The notes beneath the pieces were generated by a model. It made no database searches. It had not been told where the DNA came from and was given only the letters and a program-made list of their open reading frames with translations. Shown one piece after another: positions 8,809-45,821 of a DNA stretch of 64,000 bases. The position numbers and the translations under genes are program-made. Each line of letters opens with the position of its first letter. Within the stretch, counting starts at the first letter, position 1. The stretch is from Chimonanthus salicifolius. Lineage: Eukaryota > Streptophyta > Magnoliopsida > Laurales > Calycanthaceae. Location: the NCBI GenBank assembly GCA_013350335.1, contig CM023539.1, positions 10,974,302 to 11,038,301 on the forward strand. Reading direction: 5' to 3'.

Positions 8809-9097
8809 TGTGACAGCCCTAAACCTTAACGGCATCTTCCACGTTTACTCCGTCTAGATTCTTGAGAGATGTTTGTTAGAAGTAATATTCATAATACTTA
8901 GAACTTCAAATAAATTTATGTGCAATACATCTCGAAATTCTTACTACTTAACAACAAATTGGAATGCATGTGGATTCATCACCTACACTTCACAAACATT
9001 TTAGGTGACGGAAAACAGTACACAATACTTTGGTTGTACATGATATTCTCTATTTTTGGTTTATGTGATTGAACAATGGAAATATTGCATGATGTAT

Positions 9098-9681
9098 TGT
9101 GACACCCTACCCCTCCCTTAAGAGTCCCACATCGGTGGGAAAGAAAAGGGGGGGGTGGGTTTATTAAGAAGCCACCCATGGAACTCTTGTGTGAGGCCTT
9201 TTGGGTCGGGTCAGGTGGGCCCGGGCCCAAAAATAAAACCGTGCGGGTTCGAGCTTGTGTGCGAGGCCCAAAACGGACAATATCACACTGCGTCAAGCCC
9301 TAAGCCATGTATTCGGGTCGGGTCGTTACAAATATGGTATCAGAGCCGAGGTTCTACACTCAGACTGTGTGGGCTTTCCTCCTTCCCCTGTAGTTGTTAA
9401 GCTGGACCGGATCGAGTCGGGGACGGCTCGAGACTTTAGGGGGGGTGATTGTGACACCCTACCCCTCCCTTAAGAGTCCCACATCGGTGGGAAAGAAAAG
9501 GGGGGGTGGGTTTATTAAGAAGCCACCCATGGAACTCTTGTGTGAGGCCTTTTGGGCCGGGTCAGGTGGGCCCGGGCCCAAAAACAAAACCGTACGGGTT
9601 CGAGCTTGTGTGCGAGGCCCAAAGCGGACAATATCACACTGAGTCAAGCCCTAAGCCATGTATTCGGGTTGGCTCGTTACA
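9098..9681 (+). mobile_element. TRIM-1: complete 584-bp miniature LTR retrotransposon
   Basis: 5' LTR 9098-9330 and 3' LTR 9450-9681 are nearly identical, about 232 bp, TGTGACACCC...GTTACA. A perfect primer site for initiator tRNA-Met, TGGTATCAGAGC, is at 9335-9346, and a G-rich polypurine tract ends at 9448. The 119-bp interior codes for nothing. Perfect 5-bp target duplication TGTAT flanks it (9093-9097, 9682-9686), inside LTR B. The LTRs carry a U6-type promoter core and a TGGGCCCGGGCCCA palindrome. It is non-autonomous. The high LTR identity suggests a recent insertion. Confidence 0.93.
9124..9167 (+). promoter_or_regulatory. USE plus TATA core in TRIM-1 5' LTR
   Basis: GTCCCACATCG (9124-9134) matches the plant snRNA upstream sequence element RTCCCACATCG exactly. 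TTTATTAA begins 25 bp later at 9160. The 3' LTR repeats it at 9476-9486 and 9511, with a 24-bp gap. The spacing fits U6-type polymerase III genes rather than the longer polymerase II spacing. Confidence 0.6.
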
Positions 9682-10227
9682 TGTATTGTATTTTGGAATG
9701 TAATATTGGATTTATGAAATAGACTGGGTATTTGTTGGAATAGTGGTTGTAAACCGGTGCTTCATTGCAGTTTAAAGGAATATGCTAAATGTTTTAATTG
9801 CCGTGAGGGGACTCAGTCTGTCCGGATAGTTGAAAATTAGCCACTAGCCTTATTGAAAGGTCCAATAATTATATTCGAAATTGATGAATGTTAATTATTT
9901 GTTGTGGTGTTTATATTTTTGTGGAGAACTGAGATTTATTTATGATAATGCATTGCCACAACATTGATGATGTGATATGACTTATTGTTATGCATGTGGG
10001 ATGTTGTTGAGATTGACCCTTGATGTTTAGAACCTCTATACGATGTGTATGTTCATTTAAACTCATATAATCGTGCATGGAGTATATTGGTAATGTTTAA
10101 ATTCATGGCATGATTCATAACGTGTGGAATGACGATAGAGATGACACATGGTAAGCATGGTATTGAGCATGACATCTTCATATTCATGGGATGGGTATGA
10201 AGGTGTAGTACGTCATATTTCATGGAG

Positions 10228-10435
10228 ATCACGACGGTGGTAGTGTAAGTCCTCGTTTTTTAGTGAGAAGTACCACGTGTGTGGTAAGTTTTGTTTTTGT
10301 TAGTCCATGAAAGATCACGAAGACTGTTATTTGGTGGTGGTGTTGTGTAGTCCTCACTTCATGTGGGAAGTACCACGCTGTGGTAGAGTGTAGTCCCCAT
10401 TTTGGCAGGAAGACCACCTACTACAGTGGATAGTG
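10228..10435. repeat. Minisatellite in LTR B
   Basis: Degenerate repeats of a unit containing GTAGTCCTCA...GGGAAGTACCACG. The reverse-complement counterpart is in LTR E at about 25196-25400, at the same place relative to the LTR 3' end. Confidence 0.75.
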
Positions 10436-11081
10436 TTGTGGAAAGATGATGCACTAAGCATGTGCATTGAGCATTGTACAACGCATGGCATAAAGCATGG
10501 TCAATAAATGCATATTCATTTAGTTATGCTTTTATATTGTGGAATTCAGAATAATGGAGATGGATATGTGCTATTGTATTTCTTCACTGGGCTGGGAATT
10601 CACACCCTTATATTGCAGGTAACCCTCTAGATTTACGATTGGTGGACGATGCTGACAAGTAGAAACTACAACGGATGAATAATTAAATTCTTAGATAGAT
10701 GATGATATTACGTAGTTGAATTTCATGATTTGATGTTGTTTATTCTTTCCAGAACTTGATTGGTTGATTCAAGTAGTTGAGAATGTTGAGGTTATTAATT
10801 GATTTATTTTAGTTTATGGATGGGATTGAGTAAATATGTGAGATTAGATTTGACATCAATAAATAGACGTTATTCATTTTATATTGTGGATGACATTATG
10901 ATTTATGTGATGTGAAAAGTTGGGCTTGAAGGATTTGATGGCACATTTATTTCATTTACAAATTTAAAAAAAAAAATATACTTATCTCTCCTAGCCACAA
11001 ATCTATGATGTAAGACCCGTTAGTTGCGTTGTTGCGTTGGATCGCGCCCCTTTTATGTTGCCAAAGGAACGGGGCATTACA

Positions 11082-11836
11082 GTAAATCGCTCGACGAATG
11101 CATCCACTATGAAGAACTGACCCGTCACCCGCCTACAACAACAGTCCGAGGTAACCTGAAGGGAGGATGACCAATTCATCCCAAGATGACGCGAACTCTG
11201 ACATTTCCAAAACTCGCGAGTCAACCTCTAGTGCTGATTCCAAAAATCAAAAGGCACGATCCACAGATCTGGTCTACAACCAATGAAACTCAAGGTAGAA
11301 AACAAAGGAGAACGTTGGAAACGGGCAATACGCCGGTCAAGAGCTAAGAAACACTCACGTGCCCTATTTAAGGCGGTGAACTCCCAACTCACTCATACAT
11401 CGAAATTGGACTGTACGCTGGTCCCACCTGCGTCTCAACGGTCAACCCTGCCAGTCTGACCTAAACAAGCCCTTAACAAAGTCACAAGGACCTCTAACTA
11501 TAATACTGGACGCGTGGGAGTCCTAGAGACAGACATACAACCACTGGCTCTCCCCTAAGCACTCTCAGTAATCCAAAGCCCAAAACGGGTCTAACTAACA
11601 ACTCAAACATACCAAGCCCATCTACCCCTCATGGAATTCCGTCGGTCATCTACAGAGTTAGCCGGTCGGACTCACTCGGTAGACGCCCATAAATTTCCAA
11701 TGAGTCTATCTCCACACTATATAGTCACAAGCGAGGCCCACATATGGTGGCCTCGCACTCTAAACACGAGTCTCCTATGGATCTAGGAGGTAAACTCACA
11801 TTACAATCTTCTCCTGACAACATTGGGACCTCGAAC
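11082..11836 (-). mobile_element. Element D leader/internal sequence, distal part
   Basis: Non-coding sequence that continues the internal region of minus-strand element D on the far side of solo LTR C. The target duplication of LTR C ((C/T)GAAC) joins it to 15358. No gag domain is readable. Confidence 0.55.
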
Positions 11837-14800
11837 TGTAATGACCCGGCCCCGATCTTTCTGGATTTTTTGGGAGATTTTTAGATCTCTGTGTCTGATT
11901 AGTGTTTGGGTGGTAGAGGAGAGAGCTTGGGCTCCACGGTGGGGGGCCAATGGGCATTATGGTAATTTTGAAAACCACACTTGGTTATTATTTAAAATTA
12001 TTTTATAAAGATTAGTGTTTTTCTCCTTTCTCAAAAAGAAAATAAAACAACTAACCATAACTATATATAGTCTTTTCCCCCTCTCCTCTTCTTCTCCATC
12101 ACTCCTTCAAACCCTAGGCAGCCGCCGCCCCCTTTAGGGTGCGTCTCTCTCTTCCTCTCCCCCTCACTCTCGACCCTCTCTTCCCCTCTCTCCATTTCTC
12201 TCTCGGATCCTTCCACTTTTTTCTCCTTCTCCTTCGTCTCTCCTCTTTCCTCTTTCCCTTTTTGAAACTCTAGATCTAACCCTCCCTCACCGTCTCCGCT
12301 CTTTTGTTTCTCTTTCCTTTCCTTTCTCTTTCTCGGTTTCTCGTTCCCTCTTCTACCTCTCTTAAATCGGGAACCCCTAATGCCCCGATCCGAGAGTCCC
12401 CATTCCCATCCGAACCAAATCTTCCTCCTCCGGCTGGAAGCATGTACCTTTCTTTGCCCCCTTTTTCACCTCCTCTTATAATTCCCTCTTTATCTTCCTC
12501 TTCTCTGTAATCATTTTCCTCTTTCCTCTTCTTTCCCATGATTTTTCGCCATTTTCCCCCTTCTAGCCAGTGAGTCGACTCAGTTGAGTCACTGGGTTGA
12601 CTCGGTTGAGCCACTGAGTCAACCAGCGCCGAGTGACTCAGTCGGACCGAGCCCTTGATCCAACAACTGCAGATCTAGGCCCAGTTACTGCTCCAAGCCC
12701 ATCAGGCCCGACTCACCAGACTTGGTCCAGCCCAGCTTGCCCAGTCGCGACTCGGCCAGTTAGGCCCATTCTTCGTCCAACCCACCTCAGGTTTGGCCCA
12801 GCCTTCGGCCAGGCCCTGTTTCAGGCCCGACCTAGTTCGGCCCAGCTTTTGGCCCGGTCGATCTTTAAGCCCAATTTTTCAGATCCAGCCATCTTAGATC
12901 CAGTTTTTCAATTTTAGGCCCAGTTCCGAGCCAGACCTAGTTTTGGATCTAGTTTTCAGTTTTGGACCATGTTCGACTCGGTGTGGGACCGACCTGTTTT
13001 GGGCCTGTTTGCAGCCCAAACTTGTTTTAACCCGTTTTAACTGATTTGTAAATCCTTGTATTTCTCTTTCATCCAATCAAGCCCCCTTCAACCCAGTGGA
13101 CCCAGTTTCTCGAAGTTGATTTCAAATCGTACACAGGTGAGGGGACTCATCATACTTGTTTTAGTGTACATGATTTGCATATATCTTTCCCATAAATACT
13201 TGGACATGGAGTACAAGGAATGAGACCTTTATGGATTACGAGCCACTCGGTGAGCGAACCGTTTTGATGAATATGTGGCAAGGGGCTCATTCGAGTGTAC
13301 TCGTGTCAATATGCTTGGGATGGCAATTTCGTTAGTATTTTGATAACATGTTGGTTGATTAGCAAGGTGATGTGCGTTGTGTGATAATTTGTTTATTTGA
13401 TTATGTGATGACATGTTGAGTTGCCAAATGTTACAACATGTTGAGCTTGATAATGTGATAAGATGCTGGATGGACTAAGTAGTATCATGATATGTATAAC
13501 CTGTGTAAAGAAATGATATGCTTTAGATAATAACATGTTATATGTTTGTTTGATAACATGCAATGGATGGTAGTATATAACTGATGATTTTGTGATACGC
13601 CATGTTGATAACATGTGTGGAGATACTTGTGCATGCATGTAGTTAGTATACATGGAAAGTTGGTGGGGGTATGGATACAAGCCTACATCAGAATTTAGAG
13701 ACTCCCCCTAGCTTGTCGGATAGTTAGGATTGGGAAGTCATGGGAAATCGCATAGTGGATGCGGTTGAGCTATGGATTACTCGTTGGTGGGTCCATAGGT
13801 GTGTGAGTGCCTAGCGGGTATTTTCCTTCTTGGGTATGTGGGCCTTTGACAGAGACGTGGTCCTGTGTACGGTTGAGGTACCCGGTTGACTATTTACGGA
13901 CAAGGGTTGAGGTTCGTCCCCGTGGTCCGGTGTACGGCTGAAGTGACGGTTGGCTATTTACGGACATGGATTGAGGTTTGTCCCCGTGGTCTGGTGCACA
14001 GCTGAGGTGCCGGTTGGCTATTTATGGACATGGATTGAGGTTCGTCCCCGTGGTCCAGTGTGTGGTTGAGGTACCGGTTGACTATTTACGGGCATGGGTA
14101 GAGGTTCGCCCCCGTGGTCCGGTGTACAGCTGAGGTGCCGTTTGACTATTTACGGATATTATTCGAGGTTGTTTCCTTGGTTCGGTGTACAGCCGAAGTA
14201 CCGGTCTGTGGTGTGTGGACTTCATTGGAAGTGGCCCTAGAGATAGTGTGGTTGTAGAGTACGTTGAGTACGTACTGGGTCTCCCTGGGAGCCAGGTGGG
14301 TTGAGTGTTTGTTCACATGCACTTTGGTTGCAGCGTGTGATAGTGTGATTACCAGTGGTTATGACTTTCTAGTCCATTATTGAGACATGTGATATGGGTA
14401 TTGAGTCATTGGGATCTTATGGGCACCTGATGAGTGAGTTCGGTCTGCTAAGTTGGTAGAAGGCCTATGGAATTCCGTGAGGGGTGTCTGTACTGGTAGT
14501 GTTGAGACCAGTTGATGGGACCCAAGGTTACAAGTGTGATTCTCGGGATCTGGTACTTGGTTGAAGAGACCACAGATGGGTCCAGTTGGCAGTCCGTTGA
14601 GGACTGGTCCGGTTGTTACTCCCGTGTGATAGTCTATTTGGGACTCTAGTAAGCCCGAATCATGAGTTGATTGTGGTATGTGTGTGGGTCGCCTTGGGAG
14701 AGTCATAGCACTGGTTGAGGACCAGAGACCCTGATCTGGTTGGGGATCGGTCTTTGTACCCGTGGGTGGGTGGACCGTAGTGGATTGGCATATATGGGAG

Positions 14801-15357
14801 TTGCCCTAGTGTTGCATTAGGTTGGTTAGAGGATGTGTTGGAGGCCCGGTAGTGAGGGGAGGTGTGCTAGGGGTAGGGCACACGTTCGCATGGTCGTGCA
14901 TGTAGGCATCGTAGACATTTTTATGTCCATATGATTATATGTAGTTTATGCTTGATGACATCTGATGAATGAGTTACCCTCACTGGGCATGTAGAACTCA
15001 CCCCTTGTCTCTCAGTTGTTCTTAGGAGAAGGGTTGGCGGGACCCCCGATCAGGTGCTGGGCATGGAGCTGCAATTTTATCTTCTGTCATAGTCCCAGTT
15101 TGTAGTTGAGAGCTTATTCATGTTTTTGAGTTATGTAATCACACGTGAATTGGATAAATGCAACAATGGAATGATGTTATTGTTTTAATGATGGTTAATG
15201 CTTTATTGGTGCATTTGGTTATTGATTTGATTACAGGCTGCCCACGGTTAGTGTGGGTTGCGGAAGTGTTGTCTCCCATTTAAAAAATAAATAAAATTGA
15301 CCCTATTTCTTGAGATGTTTCATAGATAACACACCCGTAGCGGGACGGGGTGTTACA
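11837..15357 (+). mobile_element. Solo LTR C (3.5 kb, Gypsy; family C/D/I)
   Basis: TGTAATGACCCGG...GGGGTGTTACA. Flanking 5-mers CGAAC (11832-11836) and TGAAC (15358-15362) differ by one transition, so this is a solo LTR formed by recombination after insertion into element D. Inside: TATATATA near 12062, CT-rich leader 12070-12360, a zone at 12640-13030 with many GGCCCAG/GGCCCGAC copies, donor-like CAG/GTGAGGGGACT at 13137, a 64-bp minisatellite, and an acceptor-like module ending CTCAG at 15015. LTRs D and I share the order and GTGAGGGGACT. Confidence 0.87.
13855..14215. repeat. 64-bp minisatellite in LTR C
   Basis: About 5.5 units; GAGGTT(C/T)GTCCCCGTGGT recurs every 64 bp (13911, 13975, 14039, 14103, decayed at 14167). 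Confidence 0.9.
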
Positions 15358-15847
15358 TGAACAATCTAATGTCAATCACAGTCTAAATCCCCCGTGACTC
15401 TGTCACGGTACTCAAACCACTCTGAAAAAAATACCACCAATGCCCCTCAAAGGTGAGGACTCCTCTTAACATGGGTCCTACTGAGGAACACCTCTAATTA
15501 CTCTAAGGACTAACTCCAATCCTACAGATCTGTATCCCACAGCCCCATGACCACGCTACGGTGCTCTACTCATTCAAATGAGTGATCAATCTCATTATGA
15601 ACTCACCTACGAATCAAACGATGGGGAGTCTCACAGAACGAGAATCAACTACAAGACACGTCTCAAGTATGCTAACCGAAAAATAACGTATCAAGCACAC
15701 CACACAAACCTAGGGTACCTACGCACCACCCCATAACCCAGGTCCATCTACCCTATCACGTAGGGGATGAATCTATTATCTAGTCAACATCACATCCATC
15801 TCTGACCTATGCACAGTCCGAGAGTTGAACAGTGCTCTGATATGAAC
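15358..15847 (-). mobile_element. Element D leader with decayed primer site
   Basis: Starts next to LTR D. Reading the minus strand, TCATATCAGAGC (15845 to 15834) is the tRNA-Met primer site TGGTATCAGAGC with two changed bases. The rest is non-coding leader. Confidence 0.7.
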
Positions 15848-18462
15848 TATAACGCCCCGTCCCACTACGGGCGCGTGTTATCTATGAAACATCTCAAAAC
15901 GTCATAAAAGGACAAATATCAGGCATAATTTTGTTTTGAAACGGGGTAGCTACCTCTCGTTCAACGACTAATAAAACAAGATTTGTCATATTGATAACAT
16001 AACAAACAATCATTGATTGTTTAAATACAGTTATACAGTTATCCAAACAAATCACATACATTAATAAGTTTATAGAAACAAGGGTCTCTCAGCTCTAGCA
16101 AAAACATAATCATGTAATATCTAACTACTGCTACTCCTCCCAGAATGTCTCCTCAAGGGGCCCACCTGGCCCCTCTGCAATTGGAGTACTTGAAAGGTAA
16201 GGGGGGTGAGCTAACCAGCCCTGTGAAGAGATAAAGCTTATCACATGTTAGCAAGTAACATATATCATATATGAAATGTAATGAACGTCATAATAGAATG
16301 AATGTCTTCGTACATGAGTATTCAACTATACTACAAACCACTTGTCCCATTGACCAGTCTGATACGTCACCTCCGTAACTCACAACGGTCCTCCAACAAC
16401 TCTAGCCTCCCTATCAATACAACGGGAGACCACACAATACACAACCACCTCAACCGCCAGAATGCAACGGGTAAACCCTCATTTCCTTTGGGATTTCAAC
16501 CACCGGAGCATAACGGGGAAGCCAATCTCAAGGGCATGCACCTCAACCTCCAGAATACAAAGGGGAAACCAGCATCTCCTATGGAGGTCTCGATCGCCGA
16601 AGCGTAATGGGGAAGTCCTCCCAATAATCAAACCACCATATCATTATAAACATATACACATGCAAACAACCTCTCCATCTCAATACCCAACAGACATTGT
16701 CCGTTGTGGATTACCTCATATGCATGTACATGATATCATGGTCATGTCTAATAATACAACCATGCTCCAATATAATTAATCAAGATCAACGACACATGCA
16801 TCGTATGTAACAAGAGCATATAACAAGTTATCTAAAGATATACCACCATGCTCATCATGATCACGGCCACAAGTTATAAATAATCACACAACATGTTATC
16901 AAAAAAATTTCAAGCATCATGTTTAATATCCAGCGCACATCTCATTCCCATCATAAGTTCACATACATATTATGATTGAACACAAACATATCATCAACAA
17001 TTTTCGAACATCACGTCCAATATCCAGCGCATATCTCACTCTCATTATAAACTCAATCCCATGTAATGATTAAACAAACAACATGTTACTAGCAAGTTTC
17101 CAAGTTCAACTAATCATCCATCTGATTACAATTCTCCATTAATCGCATATAGTTGGCATGAGTGCACCCGAACGGATCCCTTGCCATATGTCCATTTCAA
17201 CAGTTCCCTTACCGAGTGACTTAATAAATGAAGGGCCTCTTTCAGGTCACTAATGTCCAAGGTTAAAGGTTAAATAGATGCGAGTGCATGCTAAAACAGT
17301 GATAAGTCCCCTCACAGTGTGTGTGGAGTCAAAATTTTGAAGCGAGCAAGCGGCTTGAGGGGTTGAAGGGAGCTTAGTCTGTTGAAAGAAGGAAGAACGA
17401 ATAAGTAAACAAGGTAAAAGGGGCTAAAATGAGACCGGATTGAAAACGGGCCTAGACTGGGTTGGGCCCAAAATGGGCCGAACTGAGCCGGGCTCTAAAA
17501 ACCGGTCGGGCTTGAAAATTGGATCGAGGTGGACCGGGCCAAAGAGTTGGGCCTGCAAGAAGTAGGCTTGACCTAACTAGGCCTGCCAGAAGTGGGTCGG
17601 ACCTAACTAGGCCTGATTGGGCCGTACCTAACTGGGCCTGGTTGAGCCAGGTCTGAACGAGCCAGCTGGTCAGGTCGGGTCTGGACCAATGGACGAAACA
17701 GTTGGGTCACAACCCATGCCCAAGGGCTGGGTCAACTCCAGGCCCAACCAAATCGACTCAGTCACTCGGTGAATCGACTTAGTTACTCGACTATGTCGGA
17801 AGGGTGAAAAAAAGAGAATGAAAAACTAGGAAAATCCAAGAAAATCGAGGAAAACAAGGGAAAACCATAGAAAACTCTGAGAAAGTGAAGAAAATCGAGA
17901 AAAATCGTGGAAAATCAAAGGGAAAACTCGAGAGAGAAGATAGATACCCAGAATCGGCGAGAGGGACGAAAATCGGGTGGCTACCAGCGGAAAAATCAGA
18001 TTTGGACAGTGTCGAGCTCGAAGACTGCTCGTCCAACCGAGAAAGGGAAGATGGAAATGGGTAAGGGAGGAAGGATAGGAAGAAGAAGAAAGAAGCAAGG
18101 TGGCGGTGGCGGTTTAGGACTTGGTTAGGGTTTGGATTTAGGGTTTTAGGGAAGGAAGAGGAACAAAGAACAAGGAGAGGGATGGCGACGACGACGGGTA
18201 GTGGGGTTTAGAGTTTGAGGGCGGTAAAAGGAGGAAGAGGAAACAAAGAGATGAGAGGTGGGAAAAGGGAGACAGAGATAGAGGGTACGGCGGCTAGGGT
18301 TTCCAAGGAGAGGGTAAGAGGGATTAGGGTTTTCCAAATAATTTTTTTTTTCTTTTGATAACTCGTTTAATAAACCAAATTATTAAAATACCTCCCAAAA
18401 AAATAACACAAAGATCCGCAGATCTCTCTAAAAACCCTGATAAATCAGGTCGGGTCGTTACA
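15848..18462 (-). mobile_element. LTR D: 5' LTR of a minus-strand Gypsy element (2.6 kb)
   Basis: On the minus strand it begins TGTAACGACCCGACC at 18462 and ends GGGGCGTTATA (CA end mutated) at 15848, followed by the primer site. Same family as LTRs C and I: shared GATAACAC end region, donor-like GTGAGGGGACT at 17315 and acceptor-like TTAGCTCACCCC module at 16189-16222. A 48-bp minisatellite lies at about 16420-16610 and a GGGCC-rich iterated zone at 17430-17770. It inserted into the 5' LTR of the element at 18463; GCTAC would be its target duplication. Confidence 0.8.
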
Positions 18463-18807
18463 GCTACAGTATTCACTATTACAGCTACATTACGCGCATA
18501 GTAGCAAAACACGTTTGGACCCGTTCTGTCTGTTTAATTGGTTCCGTACCAAGTCAACCGTCTATCTAAACTTGATCCTCTTCTACTCTGTGTCAATTGA
18601 CATCAAAGCCACGATTTGACGGTAGGTTAAAAAAAAAAGGAAAAAAAAATGGCATCAATAGAATTTTGCATTAAAAAAAAGAGCAAAAGAGGAAAAAAAA
18701 AAAGGTAAATAAAAAAAATGCTAAAACAGAATGCTAAAGAAAAAAATATATTAGTGAATAAAAAGAAAAAGAGAGAAATTTACAAAAGAAAAGAAAATAT
18801 TTTCTTC

Positions 18808-19699
18808 ATGGCTTCCTATTATGACTACTCAAGCGAAGACGAAGATGAAGAACTTTATATGGAGAGTGCGTATAAACGTGTGGATCATGAGAAGTCATAT
18901 CACTGTCGAGAGTACCGCATGAAGATGGACCTCTCATCTTTCAACAGTCTACTACACCCTGAAGGCTTCCTTGATTGACTCTCGGAAGTTGAGTGCTTCT
19001 TCGACAACATAAAGATTGTTGAAGTGAAAAAAGGTGAAGCCCGTGGCTTATTGTCTCAATGGTGGAGCGTCTGCATGTTGGGAGCAGTTGCAAACTACAT
19101 GCAAGCGTATGAATAAACAACCTATTAGATCTTGGCCACGGATGAAACAAATTCTACAGACTTGTTTCCTTCCAGCTGATTATGATCAAGTTTTATTCCA
19201 GCAATATCAGGACTATCGGCAAAGAAATTGTTCTGTTTGTGATTATTGTAACCATCGTGTTAGGAGACCCCACATGTCCTACACTCGACGCGCCTATGAT
19301 GACTACTCGAGTGATGATGAAGTGGAAAACTACCTAGTGGGACATGTGTGGAGGCACGATGATCATAGGATGCCTGATCATCACAAAGGATATCGTATGG
19401 AGATTATCATAGGATGCCTGATCATCCATCCGGCAGATTATTATCAGAGTCCACCAGTGCTTGAGAAAGAAGAATCATCCTTCCTAATCAGTGACATCGA
19501 GCCAGAGCCACTTGAGACAAACGAAGTCCTGATGTCTGTTGAACAGGAGACAGTCCTGGACCTCGTACCTGTTCCCCTGGATATTGAACCAAAATTGATA
19601 CAGACAGGTGAAGTCCTACAACCGTCAAACATGAGACAGAAGAGATTTCGACGCTTGTCATACAAAAGTCGATCTCGGGATTCGAGCCTATTCCACTAG
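18808..19699 (+). pseudogene. Gypsy gag relic
   Basis: N-terminus MASYYDYSSEDEDEE is acidic. FNSLLHPEGFLD then TGA (18976, where TGG is expected) then LSEVECFF matches the Gypsy capsid opening. After a shift in the A-run near 19030 the frame continues as GGASACWEQLQ, QPIRSWPRMKQIL and FLPADYDQVLFQQYQDYRQ, the standard capsid core. The tail repeats a YDDYSSDDE motif and ends in a Glu/Pro-rich region. No zinc knuckle or pol follows. Role in a live element: forming the capsid. Confidence 0.85.
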
Positions 19700-20077
19700 A
19701 GGATATGATTCCTCAGCAGTTGCAGGCACCACAATCAGTGCCCGTATTGGAGAATGAGCCATGTGCATTGTCGGCTTTAAAGTCAATGTAATCGCCAAAG
19801 ATTGACTGACCATTACTGTTGCAGCTGCCACAAGAGACACAAACATCACAAAATATTGAATACATAAAAAATGATCCTTATTTGTTCTCTCCTGTCGTCA
19901 AACCACTCTTCCTTGAGGACATCCTGCATTGTGTTTCTCTTACTATCAGTGTACAAACTCATGAAGGGCTACTTGACATACTTGAACCGTCCAAGTGCAA
20001 AGTAGAAATCATCAAGTACTAGCGGTTCTCGCATTGCATACGTACTCGAGGACGAGTTACTTTCAATCATGAGGATC

Positions 20078-22683: not shown

Positions 22684-22860
22684 TGTAACACCCAGCAGCG
22701 CTGCTAGGGTGTGGAAAAGTCCCACATCGCCCAGCAGGGCTGGGTTTAGAGAGGATTTAAGAGGGGAGTAGCTCAAGGTCTTCTAGACACAAATTGAGGC
22801 CTAGAGCAAAAATTCTAAATGGAGCCTTCTTGGAGTGGATATCAAGTAAGCTGAAAACTC

Positions 22861-23277
22861 AAAACCCTCCCAAACAAACTTACGCTTTGCATATTAACAT
22901 TTTGCTACCAAATCACCTTCATATCGACAAACTCTCTGCAGATTTAAAAACACCAACATCAGTAGAAGAAATTCAATGTATGTCCCTATGGTCAAAAAAA
23001 TTAGCACTCAAAAACAATATCACTGTAGCCTTAATTAAGAAATCAAAAACAAAATTACCTCCCAAGATCCAATTTTGAGAAAGGATATAGAGAAATATGA
23101 AGCCTTCAACCTTTCACCGCTGGGTTGAGAACTCGGATCGCCACATTTCTCTTTCGACCCCATAGAGTTAACATGAGAGGTCTTCTTAGTTGCTTTAGAC
23201 AATTTCATTTCAAGAAGATCTAAAAAGGATGGGTCTTTCTCAATGTAAAACCAAGAGGAATGAATTTCCCAAATAGA
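22861..23277 (-). pseudogene. Captured gene fragment, two exons and intron (ASG1-like family)
   Basis: On the minus strand, exon 23277-23059 (73 codons, open, phase 0) reads SIWEIHSSWFYIEKDPSF...LLEMKLSK...SISFLKIGSWE. A GT...AG intron of 123 bp (23058-22936) follows, then exon 22935 to about 22861 reading RVCRYEGDLVAKC, stop, YAKRKFVWEGFE. The motif IGSWE-RVSRYEGDLVAKCYxAKxKxVWE is, as I recall, characteristic of the plant ASG1 / AT4G30780-type family (function unclear). Splice sites are intact, so this was copied at DNA level rather than from mRNA. TAA replaces the expected Tyr codon. The fragment lies antisense inside the hAT-like element. Confidence 0.6.
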
Positions 23278-24505
23278 CTGAGAGATGTTTCAATCTGCAT
23301 TGCAGACAAAATAAAAAATCAAATGGGCAAAATAGGAAATGAAGAGAGTATGCAAAATTCATAGATTCATACTTAAATTTGAAGTCCAAAATCCCAATGT
23401 GAAAACAGGAAATATCTTTTTCATGCATGGCATATATTTGTTCAAAAAATAATCCAACAGTAGTAAAAATTCTCATAAACTTGGAGCAACTAAAAAAAGA
23501 AATAAATCTTCCAGTGATACCTAATTAAAATCCAAAATGGATTACTGTTGGCAAACACGATTTTGGTGGCAGAAGGTTGCATATAAAGAAAAAAATAAAC
23601 ATTAACTAAATAGGAGCCTTTGTGAATGTGAAATAGAAAGTCGAAAGTAGATTAAGACCCAAAAGCAGATACCCACAAACATAAAAGTACATCAAACTTC
23701 AATAACACATAAGACCTGTAACACCCCAGAATTTTCTTAGATTATAAATATATTGGATTTGGTCCATTTGAATTGCGATTTAATGGAATTTGAAATGAAA
23801 AGTTGAAATGGACACTAAGTGGGCAAAGAAATGTGTCAATTACCCAATTAAGACCCAATGGCTCATGGATGACCTGGACTTAAGGTAATTGGGTAAGTTT
23901 AGTTAAATTAGTTGAATTGGATTAATTAGTGCATTTAATGCATTAAAATCCACCTCATCAAGTGAGGTGGCATGTGAGTGAGTGGCATTGCCATATGGCA
24001 TGTATGTCATCACATGGAAGCCAACTAAGCAAGGAGGCCACATCATCAAGTGACATGGCCAAGTGGGACCCAAGTGCCATGTGGTGACCAAGTCACTACA
24101 TGCATGGCCGGCCATGACATGGTTGACTTGGTTAACCACTTGTGAGTTCAAGTTGAATTAAGTTCTTTTTGTTGAGTTGAGAAGATGAAGGGTTTTCATC
24201 TCAAGAGGCAGGAAGCCAAGGGACTCATTGGGAAGCCAAGGGGTCTCTTTGGTTTAAGTCAATGGTCTCCTTAGTTAAACGAAGGGCCTCATTGGTTAGA
24301 CAAACCATTATGAGAGGGAATGAAGAGATTAGGTTGTTATACAAAAGGACACAACCCAAGGGGCACACCAAACCCGTTGGCCGACTCCTCCTCATTGAGC
24401 AAAGATTTTTTTCTCCTCTCCTCTCCTCTCTCTCTCCTACCTCTACCTCCATACATTGGAGATTTTGAAGAACAAAGAAAGGAGAAGAAGGATTAAGGAA
24501 GAAAA

Positions 24506-27500
24506 TGTCACGACCCGCTTTCCAACACCTAAACGGGCGTGATCTGACTGTACAAATTTAACTCACCTACTGCCCTAAACGGGTCTTACATCCAAAATCT
24601 GTGGCTAAATTCAAACAAACATAATTACATTCACAAGCCACCGAAATTCCTCAAGTCTACAACCTGCTTGAAGACATAACATCTCATTAAAGCTTCCAAA
24701 ACTTAAAGGGATAAATATCACTCACATAAGGATTTCTAAACGCATCACTTACTCACATTCCCATAACAATCAAATTAAAGCGTTCTCAAATTTAATCCAT
24801 ACTTGAATTTATTATCCAAGTTTCCACAAATTGAAAATAAATGAATAAACAACTTTCTCAAAGTCTCAAATCAAAATAAACAACCAACTTATAATCTAAA
24901 TATTAAATTCTGCACTAACTAAGCGTTTCTAAGAATTCTTCATCGACTCCTCGCCTTCTAAGCTCAGTTGTGATCATCGTTTAGACCCAAATCTAAGGGG
25001 TTGCCTGCAATGTAAGGAATGAGCTCCATGCCCAGCGAAGAAAACAATAACACAAACATAGCATATGATATCCCTACTTCCTCAATAATATTTCAAATAA
25101 GCAAGAATAACAATTTATTTCATACTCATGCCTTTGCAAAAATGTAATGCTCAATGCCAAATGCCATATTCCAACCCATTATTACATCTACCGATATTTG
25201 GTGGCCTTCCCAACGAATCGAGGATAACACAATATCGCCTTAATGGCCTTCCCACATAAAGTGAGGATAACACAATCTACCACCAAATAACAGCCCTCAT
25301 GACTTGTCACGGATATCACACCTCTTCTACCATAACGGTCTTCCCACTTAAAGTGATGTTAACAACACTACCACCGTCGTGGTCTTCGTGACAATTATGG
25401 ATCGCACCCTCATACCCAATGCTATGAATATGAGAATGCTATGTTCAATGCCGATAAACATGCTTAAATATTCATAACATGCCTATGAAATTATGAATCT
25501 CAATCTAAGCAGATTATAGCATCATACTAAATATCTCATTTGTCATAGCATGCATAAACCTTGAAATAAACGTAACAATAGTCCATGCATCATAATATTT
25601 GGATTATATACACCAACATTCAAACATGTCCAATCAAGGTTAATAATTAGACGATAACATACAAATAACCATCAATCTACGAATATAAATCATTGGATCT
25701 TTCAACAATATTAATGGTTAGACTCCATAATCTGGGCGGACTGAGTCTCCACACGGCCAATAGAATGTTTAGCCAAAATCTCCCTTACACTACTGTGAGT
25801 GAACATCGGATCACAACCATTATTAACATACACCCAGTCTATTCTAGATCCAACAATTATATTCCAATCACACAACAAAATACAATATTTTTATTGCCTA
25901 AACACATAATAATATAAGGAATCATGTTCAAAAGTATGTAGTGAATTGTTTCCCGCACCTAGAAGTTTTCGTATTGTGAATGAGAAGTCCACGTAGCTTC
26001 CAAGTGATAATTACTCTTGAATACCAAAGTCTATTGCGAATATGTTTTAAAGATTCCAATCACTTTTAATATTTCTTCTAACAAATATTTCTAAATAGCA
26101 TGGATTAGATTGGTGTATAAGGATTATTAACCATGGTGATGTGTGCTGCCCTCACCTATGTATGCTGAAAATACAAGGTTAAGAGGCTAGGTATGAGATG
26201 GATTTCTATCTCAGATTCAAGCTGGACATTAACAAGACCGGTTTAAGCATCCAGTTTTAGGTAGAAAGAGGACCAGTTTTACTGATCAGTTCTGAGTGAA
26301 ATTCTGGACCAACCAGTCCTCAACATTAATGTTTTTGGGGCTGAAAATCAGTTCCTTTAACTTGCTGATCTTGGGGTAAGAAATCAGTCCCCAACTGTAA
26401 AAGCCTAGGTATTAAACAAAGAGAAAATTGCAGCAGGGGCTGCTATAGAGAACTGTCAAATATTAAATATTTGGCCTCATCTAAATGGTTTTGACACAAA
26501 TCAGTTCTCCGCAAGACTTTAAGGAAAATGCACATCTAAATTATTTAAAACAGACAAAATCATAAAAAAATCAAAAGGAAACAAATCTGTGAGGTTTAAA
26601 ATAATTTTGAGTAGTCCAAGAAAACCCACGACCAAGATCTGGCCTGGTTTGAAATAATCACACCCTGACTGTTTTAAAACTAGTAGGACAGCAAGGGAAA
26701 ACGCTTCGCTTTTGGCTGTGTTTTAAAGTCCTAATCAGTCCCCACAATCAGCGATCTGAAGACTGAAAAATTAGTCCCAGATATCACTAACTACATCAAT
26801 GGTTTGACTAGTCTCTTCTTGGTCTATTCACACAGGTAAATGTAATTAACAGGGCATCTACTTGTATGTATTTGTTTGGAAGAAAGAATAGATCTATGGT
26901 GGGACAGATCTGGGTCACAGTACGATTGGCAAAATAGGGGCAAATTCTACAAACACTGAAATCAGTCCACATTTAGTTATTTGGGGAAGAAAACTGGGCA
27001 GGTACTGTTCACGGATCAAGTATTGGGGACTGATCTGAGTTACTAAATAAATTCAATTAACAGATAAATAAATTCAGCAAGGTGGCTGTCAGTAAGGGCA
27101 CTAAGATCACTCCCAATTTCTGATAATTTCAGGCTGGTTGGGTTGTCCATCTCGCCTGGAGGTCGAGCCAAGTAAGATTTCTACATATATCTTTTAACTT
27201 AAGTAGATAAAAATTGATAGAAGTTTACCTGTATTTAGTAAGTTTCTTAGAGGGATTCAAGTGCAGGTGTTGGGTGATGGCCTGCAGCTGGAAGAAGGCT
27301 GCCAAACAGCGGAGGACAGCAGCCGTAGGTGCTGCCTAGAACAGCAGAGTGTTGCTGCATCTCTCGGGCGATAGGGAGGGAAAGAACGAGCGAAGAGATC
27401 CCAGAGATGAAGAGTAGAGGCAACAGAGACCCTCGAGAACACCTTCAACTTCGGCCAAGGCTGGTGGGCAAGCTGATGTTCATATGTGTCACGGGAAAGA

Positions 27501-28368
27501 AAAAGAAACGAAACGATCTTGCCTTGGATTTATAGGAAAATAGGGTCGGCTGCCTAATCTGAGAGAGATTAGGAAAGGGAAATAAGAGATTTTTTTTCGT
27601 TTTGGAGAGGTATATTAGGGATTTGAGTCCCAAACGAGAAAGGAAAGGGAGAAGAACAGTTTGGGTAAATTTCCCCAAGGATTACGATGGATAGGGAAGA
27701 GATAAGGGAAGGAATGAAGGGGCCAAGATAGGTTTTGTTTTCTATCGGGAGTTTAGGGATTTTTGGAGGGATTGAAGGGAACTTAGAGATAAAAACCATC
27801 GAGAGGAGTGTGGGTCCAAAGGGCCCACACAAATTGGGTAATTTCTATTCTCTAAAATAAAATAAAAATCTATATTTATACATTTTATCTGTAAGATAAA
27901 AAATCTCATTAAACAATCCCAAGGTGAAGGAATTTTGGACAATTAATTTCAACCGGAAAGGTGATTCTTTTAAAATATTGATTTTAATAAATTGTCTTTT
28001 ATTTCTCTTTTATTAATTTGTCAGTCACCAATTATATTTAGTTAATTGAAGTTGACACTTATTCATTTATTTTAACTTCTTACTAGCATACTTCTAATTG
28101 AAATTTCTAAATTAGGGGAAATTAACAATCTAAGTTGATAATTTATTTTCCATTCCCTGAATTTAATTCGAAGGGGATAAATTTGTAAATTCTCATTGAG
28201 GAGAAAGTGTGTGAAATCGGGGTCTATTATTCAATCCCTAAATTCAATTATGTTTTCCCCAAATAAAATTATCAAATTAAATTCACAATCAATTTAAACT
28301 ATGATAATTTTTTCTAAATCAATTTTACCCGACACATCTGACTCGTTACCCCGGGTCGGGTCATTACA
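24506..28368 (-). mobile_element. Solo LTR E (3863 bp, same family as LTR B)
   Basis: Minus strand: TGTAATGACCCGACCC...GCGGGTCGTGACA, flanked by a perfect 5-bp duplication GAAAA (24501-24505, 28369-28373) inside LTR F. Contains a minisatellite at 25196-25400, an acceptor-like module at 25005-25038 (reverse strand TTGCAG/GCAACCCC), a donor-like TCTAG/GTGCGGG near 25960, and a zone at 26250-27060 where ATCAGTCC/ATCAGTTC recurs about ten times. The short frames inside are not genes. Confidence 0.93.
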
Positions 28369-28775
28369 GAAAAGGCAGATCAAAAGAAAAGAATGAGACT
28401 GAAGGAAGGTATGTCTAAGGCTTGATAACATAGGAATGAATCCAAGGAAACCATAGGTTTGGCCATGGTATGGCTGAACCCATGGGTTCCATGATTGTTT
28501 GGAATGGATGGCCAAATTGTTATAAGGCCATGAAGTTGAAAATCCATCCGAGAGATGGTTTTGGGTTGAAACAAAACAACCATAGGATTAAATCCAAAAC
28601 CATGTTATAATGGTACAATGATTGGATAAATTATGAAAAACCCTAACCTTGGCTAGTGCGTAAGATAAACTTATTAAGTGAAGGGTTGAAGATGAAATCC
28701 ATGTTTAGATATGACAAAGAATGGATTTCATGGAGAAGGGCTTTACAAGATATGTAAACAAAAAGAACTGACAAA

Positions 28776-29349
28776 AGGTCAGTAGACTGAAAGTGTACTG
28801 GCAAAGCAAACAAAGGATATCTGGGTGTTTCAGCCGACTGAATATTATGATTCAGTCGACTGAAAGTGAACTAGCCGAGCACACAAAGGATCTGGTTGTA
28901 TTTCAGCCAACTGAATCTTGTGATTTAGCCGACTGAAAGTATACTGGCTAAGCACAGATGGGAGCTGTTTGTATTTCAATTGACTGAATCTTATGATTCA
29001 GTGGACTGAAAGTATACTTGCCAAACACGTAAGTGATCTGGTGTGTTTCAGTCGATTGAATCTTATGATTCAGTCGACTGAAAGTTTACTGGCCAAACAC
29101 GTATGATATCTAGTTGTATTTCAGCCGACTGAATCTATTATTCAATCAACTGAAAATGAACTGGCCGAGAACACAAAGGATCTGACTCAAAGTCAGCCTG
29201 CTGAATTTGTGATTCAGTCAGTGGAAAGTGTACGGGTCAAGTTTGTATAGTATCAGGTTATGTTTCACCCCAATGAATATTATTATTCAGTCAATTGAAA
29301 GTTGTGGATAAAGCATAGATGGTATCTGGGTGTGATTCAGTCAACTGAA
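28776..29349. repeat. 72-73-bp minisatellite with TTCAGTCGACTGAA palindrome in LTR F
   Basis: About eight units; GACTGAAAGT recurs at 28785, 28858, 28931, 29004 and 29076, then decays. Each unit contains one or two copies of the perfect palindrome TTCAGTCGACTGAA or a near variant. Confidence 0.92.
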
Positions 29350-30815
29350 TTGAAAAGTTATAATTTTGGATTATCTTCCAGAGCCTTTTGTAGGGTGTAA
29401 GGGGTGATGAAATTAAAATGGAAGATCAAACTAAAATGCATGTTTGAATTTGATTAGGTAAAGAGGTTCGCAAAGAGATTTTGATTCGTTTTACGCAATC
29501 GTTAGCGTTGTCCTTGCAAAACAAGAAAATGACAGTATATCGGACATTGGTAGGATTCCTACCTCATTGAGAATACTATGGAGTATAATATGATATTGGT
29601 TTTATTCCAAATATGATGATTACTTTTGTTAAACAAATTGTATATGATTGTGAACTGATTTTCAAATGATATGATGTATTTTAAAAAGATATGGCATTAT
29701 TGCATACATTACCTCATGCATGGCATGGGAGGGAACATATATGACCAGCAAGCCAAGTTCTGAGCGGTCCGGACATAACTTGGGCTTGAGATTAGCTTGT
29801 ATGAAGCTATATGAACTTTTAAGATTTGGCCTCGTCCAGTTGAAAGGAAAGGTACGGCTTATTGGGCCAAAGAGCTCCTGGGTAGGCAGTCCCGAAACCC
29901 TGCACAGTGGGAGGAGTCCACACTCCATCGGTAACCTGGTGGTTGCCGCCTCAAACACTGTGGACATAATTGGCCAAGGAAACCGTTTATTGATTTATGA
30001 TGTGATTTGATATGGACATTGGGTGAGAGTTCATTTGGCATTGACACCCATGACATGATACTTGTATTTGCATGATTATGATATGGACATCATGCATTGT
30101 TTTATTGATTTCAAGATGTTTTACAAATATGACATGATGTATATACCCTTGATCTAATATTACTCCTATGTGTATCCTAACCTTAATTGGAATACCTACT
30201 GGGCATGTTGACTAATGCCCTACTTCTACCCTATAGATGATGGAACAGGGAATGGTAATGAAAAGGATATTGGACCGGAAGGGAGCCAAGCGTAGGAACT
30301 TGGGAAGATTAATGTTTAAATTATTCAGTTTGAATTTCAATGATGCATTGGGAGGACTACATTTTGGATTGTAATAACTTAGACTTATTTACTATGGTTT
30401 GATAATCTTAAATTTTTTTTATTGAAGTTATATGGTGATTGGCTTTCCTTGCTTAATGATGACATGAATATGGATAGCATCTTATTCATATGAATTTTCC
30501 GCAAGTATTCAGAAAAGCGTGTGAAATGTTTAAGTGGACTAGGTCCAAGCACACGTAATGGTGGGCAGTTAAGGGTCGGATTTTGAAAACTCAAACTTAA
30601 CTCGCGTCGTGACGACCCCTCTCTATCACTTATTTTAAAAACAAAATATACTCTGATTTGTGGTGAGTAAAAAAAGGCGGGGCGTTACACGACCTACAAA
30701 ATCATTAATCAAAAAGTCCTATAAAAGTCTCAAAAAACTGCATTGCTATCAAAGAAAATTATAGAAAAAATAAAAAATGAAAACACCTAATGAAGAAAAA
30801 GACGAAGAGAGAGAG

Positions 30816-31532
30816 TGTCGTGACCCCAGCCCAGAGGCCCAATGGCGTCCACGATCGATCGGCAATGGCGATTAATCGCCATTGGGCGAGTGGTTGTGGA
30901 AAAAGTCCCACATCGCCTAGGAGATGAATGTTGAGGGACTTTATAAGAGGTAATACTCCTTTCACCTAGCACAACGTGTTTTGGGCCTACAGTTGAGCCA
31001 AGCCCAATACAAAGTCGCGCGGGCCCCCATGTGAGTCCAAAGTAGATAATATTGTGCTGGGCCGAGTTGAGTTGCAGCGGGCACACCCGAGTTGGGTCAT
31101 GACTAACGGTATCAGAGACTAGGTTCAACAATCGGACTGTGTGGGCCTTTCCCATAGGAGTTAGCATGCCGAGCCAAGGATTGGGTCTTCCCCTAAGCGG
31201 CCGAGTCAAGCCGAGGGTGGCTCTAAGCTTAAAGGGGATGGATTGTATTGGCCCCAGCCTAGAGGCCCAAAGGCGTCCGTGATCGATTGGCAATGACGAT
31301 TAATCGACGTTGGGCGAGTGGGTGTGGAAAATGTCCCACATCACCTAGGAGATAAATGTTGAGGGGGTTTATAAGAGGCAATACTCTCGTCACCTAGCAC
31401 AATGCGTTTTGGGCCTCCAGTTGAGCCAGGCCAATGCTAATCCGTGCAGGCCCACGTGTGAGTCCAGAGCGAACAATATTGTGCTGGGCCGAGTTGAGTT
31501 GGATCGGGTACGCCCGAGTTGGGGCCATGACA
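30816..31532 (+). mobile_element. TRIM-3 (717 bp)
   Basis: LTRs 30816-31105 and 31244-31532, about 290 bp each, separated by 138 bp with a primer site CGGTATCAGAGAC (two changes) at 31107 and a purine tract before 31244. Flanks GAGAG (30811-30815) and GTGAG (31533-31537) match at four of five. A perfect 22-bp palindrome centred on ATTAAT (30863-30884) precedes the USE. USE at 30905-30915, TTTATAAG at 30940; in the 3' LTR GTCCCACATCA at 31333, TTTATAAG at 31368. It lies in an intron of the captured gene fragment inside the hAT-like element. Confidence 0.9.
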
Positions 31533-31550
31533 GTGAGAAGTGAGACTTAC

Positions 31551-31752
31551 ATCCTGATTTGTATCCATTATTCTAGCATATTGCATTGGGCACTCCCAAA
31601 CTCATCTTTCTTCTCTTCGGAAGAACTAGGAACATGGCTATGTAATCCATCAGAAGCAAAGGAAGTATGCTCTAAAGCAAGAGTCTCATCCCTTCCATCC
31701 TCTCCAAGCATATCATTCGAAACAGTCAAACCAGTTTTCCTCAATAGTTACC
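31551..31752 (-). pseudogene. Captured gene fragment, upstream exon (same gene as 22861-23277)
   Basis: Minus-strand frame rich in Ser/Glu (KTGLTVSNDMLGEDGRDE ... HSHVPSSSEEKKDEFGSA). After an apparent frameshift it ends ARIMDTNQD, directly followed by a canonical donor GTAAGT at 31550. The matching acceptor would be CTCAG just above 23277. Removing LTR F and TRIM-3 leaves an intron of roughly 0.58 kb. That this is the same source gene is inferred from position, strand and phase; I do not recognise the sequence independently. Confidence 0.45.
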
Positions 31753-32318
31753 GAGTGAAGAGGAGAGGGATTTGGGTCCTTCCAAAATGAGGGCCTAAAG
31801 CAATTGCTTGAGTTGCCTTATGCTTTAGTATGCCATGGGGCAGTCCCTCTCCCATCACGAGGCATTTTGGGTCTGGCCAGGTGAGCTGGCCCTAAAGCAA
31901 AACTGTGCGGGTTGAGGTGGGCCCAAAGCGGACAATATAGTCATGGGGTTGGGTCGGATTGTCACAAGTGGTATCAGAGCACGGTTCAACACTTAGACTG
32001 TGTAGGCTCTTTACTTCTGCGATATTGCCTGCCTATGTGTGTGGACCCTCTGTCAGTGTGACATGACAGAGTCGGGGATGGCTCTGGTCTAAGGGGGTGG
32101 ATTGTAACACCCAACAGCGCAGTTGGGGTGTGTGAAAGTCCCACATCGCCCAGTACGGCTGGGTGTAGAGTGAATTTAAGAGGGAGCAGCCCCTCTCCCA
32201 TTACGAGGCCTTTGGGGCTTGGCCTGGTGGGCTAAGCCCAAAGCAAAATCGTGCGGGCCTAGGTAGGGCCCAAAGTGGAGAATATCGTAATGGGGTCAGG
32301 TCAGGTCATTGCATTTTC

Positions 32319-33020
32319 CATCATCTCCATCTTTGTTTTCTAGTAGAGTGAAATTCCTATTGTTTTTTTTTTTTTTTTGCTTAGATTTAACCTCCAATTT
32401 TCATTAGATTGGAGCCTTGGCCGAACTCCATGCCAGTGACCTTAACTTGCATCCTTTTCTATTAGATACGCTACATCGGTTGGTCTTAGATAATAGATCT
32501 TGGACACCTCGGTTGTGATGCAGGCATCATTCATGAAAATGAGAAAGAAACTACATTATTTTTTATCGTGGCAAAGTAGGGCCTAAATTGGCTAAAATGA
32601 TAAATTTATTTTATGTGGATCCTACCCATGGACCCGAGGTCCTATTGGAAGCATAATAGTACCTACATGAAGTGTTACAAAGCCAAAACCCTAGCTCCAA
32701 AAGTGAGTTGTGATTTGGAGTAGGTTGGTAGCTAAAATTCCACAAACCAATGGTGGATGGCATGTGGACTCTCCTCTCCCTCATCAAGCAAGATTTGAAG
32801 TCCTAAATGGACAATGAACAAGGAATGTGGTGCATGGAGTGGCTGATTTTGATTGGTTGGGACAACACATCATTCCTACCTGGTACAATGTGATTGGATG
32901 ACAAAATCATGGTCTAAATTTGTAGGTTTAATTGAATTATCAAACATGATATCATACTTTCATAAAATTAGGTTCGTTCCAGTAACCCAACGTTTGCACA
33001 ATTCCAATAATTATAGACAA
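32319..33020. other. Non-coding sequence right of TRIM-2
   Basis: Starts with a poly-T tract at 32364. No gene, LTR terminus or RNA feature recognised. Confidence 0.4.
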
Positions 33021-33331
33021 AGTTATGACTTGGGTCACTCCACCTAACATCCTAGTGTTTCAGGCTAGAAGCACAGGTCCTAACAAGTCGTATTAGAAGC
33101 AGGTCTCAGGCTACCTCATGTGGGCTCAAGAGATCCCTCAGGCGAACAGGTTGGTCGGCGTCTCTCTCCACCGAAGGTCCTTGTTCGAGAGGGAGGGGGG
33201 GGGGGATTGTTGGGCCTGTTGTGAACGAGTCCCACCTTGGAAGTGTAGAGCGAGTTCTAGGGGTTTATATAGGACTTGGGTCACTCCACCTAACAAGCTA
33301 GTCTTTTGGGCTGGAAGCCCAGGTCCTAACA
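33021..33331 (+). mobile_element. TRIM-4, 5'-truncated
   Basis: The 3' LTR 33208-33331 (124 bp, TGTTGGGCCTG...GTCCTAACA) has its last 60 bp repeated at about 33021-33085, the remnant of the 5' LTR. Between them are a decayed primer site (TCGTATTAGAAGC) at 33088 and a long G-rich polypurine tract ending at 33205. USE-like GTCCCACCTTG at 33229-33239 with TTTATATAG at 33264, a 24-bp gap. No target duplication can be tested because the 5' end is missing. Confidence 0.75.
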
Positions 33332-35841: not shown

Positions 35842-36053
35842 TATAACGGCAGTAAACACTCACAAAGGACTCCTAACCCAAGAGGAACTCATAGTCCAAC
35901 TGAAAGTTGAACTCTCTCGAATCCTAATCCTTTTGTGTTACTCCTCAAAGAGGTTGTATTTTAATTGATGTTTTCCTCCTAAAAGAGAGACTTGTAATCT
36001 TATTTATATTAAGTGATAATGATACATGTGTATGGGATTTTCACAACCTTTCA
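35842..36053 (+). repeat. Copia 5' LTR
   Basis: About 95% identical by eye to 45822-46034. Contains a CTCCTCAAAGAGG dyad and a late AT-rich segment before TTTCA. Confidence 0.92.
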
Positions 36054-44487: not shown

Positions 44488-44572
<85 letters not shown>

Positions 44573-45820: not shown

Positions 45821-45821
45821 G

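Follow-up and report, generated by a model that had tools for sequence, protein, structure and literature searches.

Miniature LTR retrotransposons with a putative snRNA-type polymerase III promoter in a stretch of the Chimonanthus salicifolius genome

Our analysis of 64 kb of Chimonanthus salicifolius DNA (contig CM023539.1, positions 10,974,302 to 11,038,301; this whole stretch is called the window and positions are counted from its first letter) revealed four elements with miniature long terminal repeats (LTRs), TRIM-1 to TRIM-4, all on the plus strand and with borders that were mostly set by eye. They are apparently non-coding miniature LTR retrotransposons of the kind known as terminal-repeat retrotransposons in miniature (TRIMs), and they share a promoter core that is real, non-random and well placed, consisting of the upstream sequence element (USE) of plant small nuclear RNA (snRNA) genes, a TATA-like box and a T-run of the form TTT(T)GGG. 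Because the spacing of USE and TATA matches that of type 3 promoters, and because USE and T-run are conserved amid flanks that have diverged, we read the U3 part of these LTRs, with moderate confidence, as a gene-external polymerase III promoter of plant type 3. TRIM-1 and TRIM-3 are the only complete elements that carry the promoter core in the 5′ LTR. Polymerase III transcription had been proposed for four families in an earlier reading made from the letters of this stretch (the sequence-only reading); motif, TATA box and spacing leave it as the best reading, but the four families shrink to one group of three together with TRIM-4.

The exact USE, GTCCCACATCG, occurs five times in the window, each time on the plus strand and inside a TRIM LTR (at 9124, 9476, 22719, 32138 and 30905), which bears out the sequence-only reading that at least one LTR of TRIM-1, TRIM-2 and TRIM-3 contains it; the variant GTCCCACCTTG that it gave for TRIM-4 was likewise recovered, at 33229. 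In thirty dinucleotide shuffles of the window the average number of sites was 0.03 for exact matches, 1.2 when one mismatch was allowed and 20.9 when two were, and a chance origin of the motif is ruled out by five exact sites against 0.03 expected. Counting all LTRs there are seven sites, five of them exact; the two that do not match are those of the TRIM-3 3′ LTR (last G changed to A) and of TRIM-4 (two changes). The plant consensus is given as RTCCCACATCG, with TMCCACATCG as a refined form (PMC9845283, PMC12268498). According to PMC12268498, changes in the USE can abolish activity and an A at position 10 is linked to an inactive U6 promoter; this A is found in the 3′ LTR of TRIM-3 and is not found in its 5′ LTR. 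Large LTRs had been suggested as a control, and the one available pair, that of a Ty1/copia element (35844-36054 and 45825-46035), contains no USE with up to two mismatches.

A TATA-like box starts 25 and 24 bp past the end of the USE in TRIM-1, 25 and 25 bp in TRIM-2, 24 and 24 bp in TRIM-3 and 24 bp in TRIM-4. The earlier distances agree with these apart from TRIM-2, which had been given as 26 and 26, a difference of one base that comes from the choice of the box start. With a loose set of TATA words, whose 6-mers had been widened to TTTATT and ATTTAA after the TRIM-1 and TRIM-2 sites were seen, a box at 24-25 bp was found at seven of seven TRIM sites and at none of the 16 other window sites with up to two mismatches, and the probability of such a box is 0.011 for a random position. 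With strict TATA words the counts are three of seven (two of the four families) and again none of 16. Fisher tests of the spacing gave P = 2e-4 for four families, 0.007 when TRIM-1, TRIM-2 and TRIM-3 are counted as one, and 0.03 with the strict words. The T-run starts 62-64 bp past the USE in six of the seven LTRs, the exception being the partial LTR at 22684, the recognisable part of which stops at 22765, ahead of the expected place of the T-run. Measured from the TATA start the distance is 39 bp in both LTRs of TRIM-1 and of TRIM-3, 37 bp in the 3′ LTR of TRIM-2 and 40 bp in TRIM-4. The previously noted range of 36-40 bp is therefore found, as 37-40 bp, at six of seven sites and in all four families, and fails in the LTR with the USE at 22719, where there is no T-run.

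The USE-like motif of TRIM-4 is meaningless when taken alone, since 20.9 sites with at most two mismatches are expected per shuffled window. Its complete layout is expected about 0.002 times among the 16-21 two-mismatch sites per window, a product of rates that was framed post hoc, and chance appears an unlikely source of it. Strict TATA words at 24/25 bp combined with TTTTGGG at 60-66 bp were present at 15 of 127,800 positions, the TRIM sites counted in. Among viral sequences GTCCCACATCG and TATAA were paired by chance 105 times, at distances scattered over 6-38 bp and in five of the 105 cases at 23-26 bp, and of 128 viral and prokaryote matches to USE followed by TTTTGGG five also had TATA or TTTA at 22-27 bp. 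Altogether, motif scans of viral and prokaryote contig collections returned at least 260 loci from phages, viruses and prokaryotes (105, 7, 8, 20 and at least 120 per scan, with no match in one further scan), none of which was taken for a TRIM; loci with single shared features, 7 in one round of motif scanning and 8 in another, were taken as chance.

A highlight article on Hudzik et al. 2023 (PMC10745700) places the USE 54-55 bp ahead of the transcription start when polymerase III is used and 66-67 bp ahead of it when polymerase II is, and U6 and U3 genes have the USE one helical turn closer to the TATA box than polymerase II genes, with TATA at -28 to -30 (PMC9845283). As far as sequence can tell, USE and TATA at 24-25 bp have the arrangement published for plant type 3 (U6/U3) promoters, and the earlier assignment of the short spacing to polymerase III fits the published rule. 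Polymerase II, which makes most spliceosomal snRNAs, could also use an snRNA-type promoter, and the RNA would then be SNAPc-dependent, capped and non-polyadenylated. Most of the major snRNA promoters of Arabidopsis do contain USE and TATA (PMC545797), but polymerase II genes place the USE about one helical turn further away and the spacing is short at all seven sites, and we consider this explanation very improbable. For a type 3 promoter, the published USE-to-start distance, which we count from the USE end in keeping with TATA at -28 to -30, predicts starts at 9189 (TRIM-1 5′ LTR), 30970 (TRIM-3 5′ LTR), 32203 (TRIM-2 3′ LTR) and 33294 (TRIM-4 3′ LTR). The T-run lies 8-10 nt downstream of the predicted start in six of six LTRs.

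The families had been described as unrelated outside the core and the LTR termini, and this did not survive alignment. Local alignments from the T-run through U5 and the primer site into the internal region scored 134.5 for TRIM-1/TRIM-2, 72.5 for TRIM-1/TRIM-3 and 82 for TRIM-2/TRIM-3 against shuffle maxima of 31.5-34.5 (reached in none of 500 shuffles for each of the three pairs), which rules out four unrelated families as far as these three are concerned. The internal region alone gave scores of 63-67.5 against shuffle maxima of 29-31.5. TRIM-4 scored 18-25 against the other three, inside the shuffle range (117, 38 and 379 of 500 shuffles reach the score). Judged by these alignments TRIM-1, TRIM-2 and TRIM-3 are one related group and TRIM-4 is a separate or far older lineage. 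The shared core might reflect mere common descent of related elements with no present function. This would agree with the homology across R-U5 and the internal region, with the truncation of several copies and the damaged motif in the TRIM-3 3′ LTR, and with further stretches common to the elements. One of these is a U5 block, GCCCAAAGCGGACAATAT, which is present with 0-2 mismatches in TRIM-1 and TRIM-2 (9266-9283, 9617-9634, 31921-31938 and 32268-32285) and in a weaker form with 3-4 mismatches in TRIM-3 (at 31035 and 31462), and therefore the promoter is not the sole conserved part.

When one LTR per family was compared pairwise with the 95% point of shuffled sequences, the 30 bp before the USE, the USE-TATA spacer and the stretch from TATA to T-run showed identities of 0.36-0.62 and were under that point in 14 of 18 comparisons. 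The other four, at or over it, were the three stretches of the TRIM-2/TRIM-3 pair and the TATA-to-T-run stretch of TRIM-1/TRIM-2, so that some common descent is still visible in U3. The USE, in contrast, is identical at 11 of 11 positions among TRIM-1, TRIM-2 and TRIM-3 and at 9 of 11 to TRIM-4, the T-run octamer is identical at 7 or 8 of 8, and both exceed the 95% point in six of six pairs. Descent without function appears quite improbable to us, given that USE and T-run have kept fixed distances while most of what lies between them is about as alike as shuffled sequence, and that TRIM-4 has the same layout with no detectable kinship. Islands of USE and T-run at fixed spacing within diverged flanks would be the trace expected of a working promoter.

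With a polymerase III promoter in U3, SNAPc and TBP would position the polymerase to start about 55 bp past the USE and 8-10 nt before TTT(T)GGG. The newly started polymerase would read through the T-run of the 5′ LTR and copy the element until the copy of the T-run in the 3′ LTR stops it. The resulting RNA would be uncapped, with a length of 365 nt for TRIM-1 and 441 nt for TRIM-3, and its ends would share an R repeat of about 11-14 nt, in principle sufficient for strand transfer. Reverse transcription would be primed by initiator tRNA and would use the proteins of another element. That the elements represent an additional class of LTR retrotransposons driven by polymerase III, in which the enzyme disregards the T-run of the 5′ LTR but terminates at that of the 3′ LTR and the distance from promoter to T-run alone sets the tiny R, is a tentative suggestion that may well turn out otherwise.

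Several points weigh against polymerase III transcription in this form. A TTTT at 8-10 nt past the start might abort transcription, read-through being an assumption, and the T-run of the TRIM-2 3′ LTR has three T only. Between the two T-runs no run of four or more T occurs in any of the four elements, as compared with six runs of four or more A; this agrees with polymerase III transcription, but the absence of TTTT is not significant (expected 2.1 by dinucleotide shuffles, P 0.10, or 2.6 by mononucleotide shuffles, P 0.06). In addition, TTTT is also missing from 33-48% of the window stretches with comparable length and T content, and the depletion is suggestive only as support for a terminator. 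Transcripts would begin with G, T, A, C, C and C at the six predicted starts, and thus not uniformly with a purine. The boxes of TRIM-1 and TRIM-2 (TTTATTAAG and ATTTAAGAG) are not textbook TATA boxes, and TATA identity between families is 0.60-0.80, at the 95% point in four of six pairs only, though the boxes were chosen for TATA likeness. Finally, the USE of TRIM-4 carries two changes, neither of which is covered in the available text of PMC12268498.

An ordinary polymerase II LTR promoter is another explanation. Here, TATA would place polymerase II, GTCCCACATCG would bind another factor or merely assist, and TTTTGGGCC near the start would be a site II/Up1-like site or the arm of an RNA hairpin. 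In fact TTTTGGGC agrees with the site II/Up1-like motif TGGGCY, and TTTTGGG can form a stem with CCCAAAA further downstream, in TRIM-1 with z of -2.0 and -1.7 and in the TRIM-2 3′ LTR with z of -2.6. Such hairpins of TTT(T)GGG with CCCAAA would span 9199-9235 and 32211-32245. In the other four of the seven folded sequences the T-run hairpin is weak or absent (z -0.1 to -1.2), and a conserved hairpin beginning in the T-run was rejected, as only three of seven sequences support it. Polymerase II promoters have been described in LTRs, and those Cassandra-like TRIMs that lack 5S sequence have TATA boxes as a putative polymerase II signal (PMC10853983). Such a promoter, however, leaves an exact 11-bp snRNA USE at polymerase III distance from TATA unaccounted for, and we regard it as rather unlikely.

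The two complete elements are 584 bp (TRIM-1) and 717 bp (TRIM-3) long, both under the TRIM limit of 1,000 bp and with two LTRs each (Table 1). TRIM-1 is bordered on both sides by the target-site duplication TGTAT (9093-9097 and 9682-9686), with a length inside the 4-6 bp expected of TRIMs, and the TRIM-3 flanks GAGAG and GTGAG match at four of five positions. In TRIM-2 the 5′ LTR fragment (31837-31966) is without the promoter half, having its T-run at 31865 and being followed by the primer site at 31969; the remnant of the TRIM-4 5′ LTR, which ends at 33085, also lacks the promoter half. The primer site TGGTATCAGAGC, which we take to be of the initiator-tRNA-Met type, is exact in TRIM-1 and TRIM-2, changed to GGTATCAGAG in TRIM-3 and degenerate in TRIM-4 (TCGTATTAGAAGC). 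A check for polypurine tracts found a G-rich tract close to the 3′ LTR in four of four elements, interrupted by T beside the LTR. Fifteen stop-to-stop frames in the window have at least 150 aa, and a single one of them (30787-31299, 170 aa, on the minus strand across TRIM-3) overlaps a TRIM; it is probably a chance frame and was outside the nine frames compared with Pfam. The U3 of TRIM-3 (30816-30845) also has the words AGCCCA and GGCCCA upstream of the USE, which resemble the monocot-specific promoter element RGCCCR (PMC9845283).

Table 1. Positions of the TRIM elements and of the motifs in their LTRs within the window.
Feature	Position	Strand	Basis or remark
TRIM-1, complete element	9098..9681	+	LTRs 9098-9330 and 9450-9681, pair identity 95.5%
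TRIM-1 USE GTCCCACATCG, exact	9124..9134 (5′ LTR), 9476-9486 (3′ LTR)	+	motif search
TRIM-1 5′ LTR TATA-like box TTTATTAAG	9160..9168	+	25 bp past USE; 3′ LTR box at 9511, 24 bp
TRIM-1 TTTTGGG	9199..9205 (5′ LTR), 9550-9556 (3′ LTR, candidate terminator)	+	5′ copy 10 nt past predicted start 9189
TRIM-1 primer binding site TGGTATCAGAGC	9335..9346	+	motif search
TRIM-2, lone partial LTR	22684..22765	+	87% identity to 32103-32184 over 82 bp
TRIM-2 lone LTR USE GTCCCACATCG, exact	22719-22729	+	motif search
TRIM-2 lone LTR TATA-like box ATTTAAGAG	22755	+	25 bp past USE
TRIM-2, element	31837..32313	+	5′ LTR fragment 31837-31966, 3′ LTR 32103-32313
TRIM-2 3′ LTR USE GTCCCACATCG, exact	32138..32148	+	motif search
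TRIM-2 3′ LTR TATA-like box ATTTAAGAG	25 bp past USE 32138..32148	+	motif search
TRIM-2 3′ LTR TTTGGGG	32211	+	three T only
TRIM-3, complete element	30816..31532	+	LTRs 30816-31104 and 31244-31532, pair identity 84%
TRIM-3 5′ LTR USE GTCCCACATCG, exact	30905..30915	+	motif search
TRIM-3 3′ LTR USE GTCCCACATCA, 1 mismatch	31333	+	motif search
TRIM-3 5′ LTR TATA box TTTATAAGA	30940..30948	+	24 bp past USE; 3′ LTR copy 31368
TRIM-3 TTTTGGG	30979..30985 (5′ LTR), 31407-31413 (3′ LTR)	+	5′ copy 9 nt past predicted start 30970
TRIM-4 3′ LTR	33208..33331	+	64-bp repeat 33024-33087/33270-33333, 87.5%
TRIM-4 USE-like GTCCCACCTTG, 2 mismatches	33229..33239	+	motif search
TRIM-4 TATA-like box TTTATATAG	24 bp past USE-like site 33229..33239	+	motif search
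TRIM-4 TTTTGGG	33304	+	motif search

The window reads as plant DNA, with RVT_2 matches in a Ty1/copia element and a plant PMEI domain (both Pfam). The Ty1/copia element (35844-46035, LTRs of about 211 bp) carries, between the stretches that match gag and reverse transcriptase, four tandem copies of a 547-bp unit (38540-40730), and short-period tandem arrays lie at 13856-14205 (about 64 bp) and 28752-29350 (72-73 bp). At 56512 a primer-site-like TGGTATCAAAGC is followed by GGTTCAACA as in TRIM-2; no LTR pair was detected and no USE lies nearby, and this is probably a remnant.

A close known counterpart of the TRIMs described here is Cassandra of plants, likewise a miniature non-coding LTR element with a polymerase III promoter (here predicted) in the LTR. 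For its RNA, a start within the 5′ LTR, an end within the 3′ LTR and a terminal repeat of 18 bp have been reported (PMC10886601), comparable to the very short repeat of about 11-14 nt predicted here. The promoter of Cassandra, however, is 5S-internal, whereas that of the present TRIMs would be a gene-external USE and TATA. For Helenus and Ajax, grouped with Cassandra as the proposed TRIMp3 in PMC10886601, polymerase III transcription was also proposed from sequence, but with tRNA- or 5S-derived promoters; neither "snRNA" nor "type 3" appears in that paper's main text. In our window no Rfam family reached its gathering threshold, a search in which weaker matches were not sought, and no tRNA, the promoter source in Helenus, was found, so that we rejected fragments of known RNA genes, 5S and tRNA among them, as part of the elements. 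Five B-box-like words were found in TRIM-1, TRIM-2 and TRIM-3 (one at 9246 within a TRIM-1 LTR, one at 9425 and three adjacent to the primer site) and none in TRIM-4. Those beside the primer site would be explained by the likeness to the tRNA T-arm that is expected there. The sole A-box-like word (32085) has no B box after it. An extra internal polymerase III promoter was rejected on these observations.

USE and TATA, or a USE at polymerase III distance, are known from plant U6 and U3 snRNA genes, from telomerase RNA (AtR8/AtTR) genes and from interface-induced microRNA loci of Cuscuta (PMC9845283, PMC6765143, PMC10745700). These are genes with defined RNA products, whereas the TRIM promoter sits in a mobile LTR. 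TRIMs surveyed in 48 plant genomes (PMC4717578) share the size of less than 1 kb, the LTRs and the target-site duplication with ours; the word "promoter" does not occur in the main text of that survey, and we came across no USE in it. In PMC10853983 the polymerase III promoter is said to set Cassandra apart from all other known TRIMs. We found no prior description of a USE or an snRNA-type promoter in an LTR retrotransposon among the papers listed from the open-licence literature, a set without the founding TRIM and Cassandra papers. Polymerase III-driven TRIMs are thus already known, and an snRNA-type (type 3) promoter in an LTR would be a new variant.

If our reading is true, LTR retrotransposons would have adopted all three types of polymerase III promoters, namely the 5S type (shown for Cassandra), the tRNA type (proposed for Helenus) and the snRNA type described here, which would help to explain the short length of such elements. 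The distance between USE and TATA would be a simple genome-wide indicator of the polymerase used by such an element, and genome-wide hunts for new USE-TATA genes would also catch LTRs. Plant genomes would furthermore contain mobile U6-like promoters, which possibly drive nearby small RNAs.

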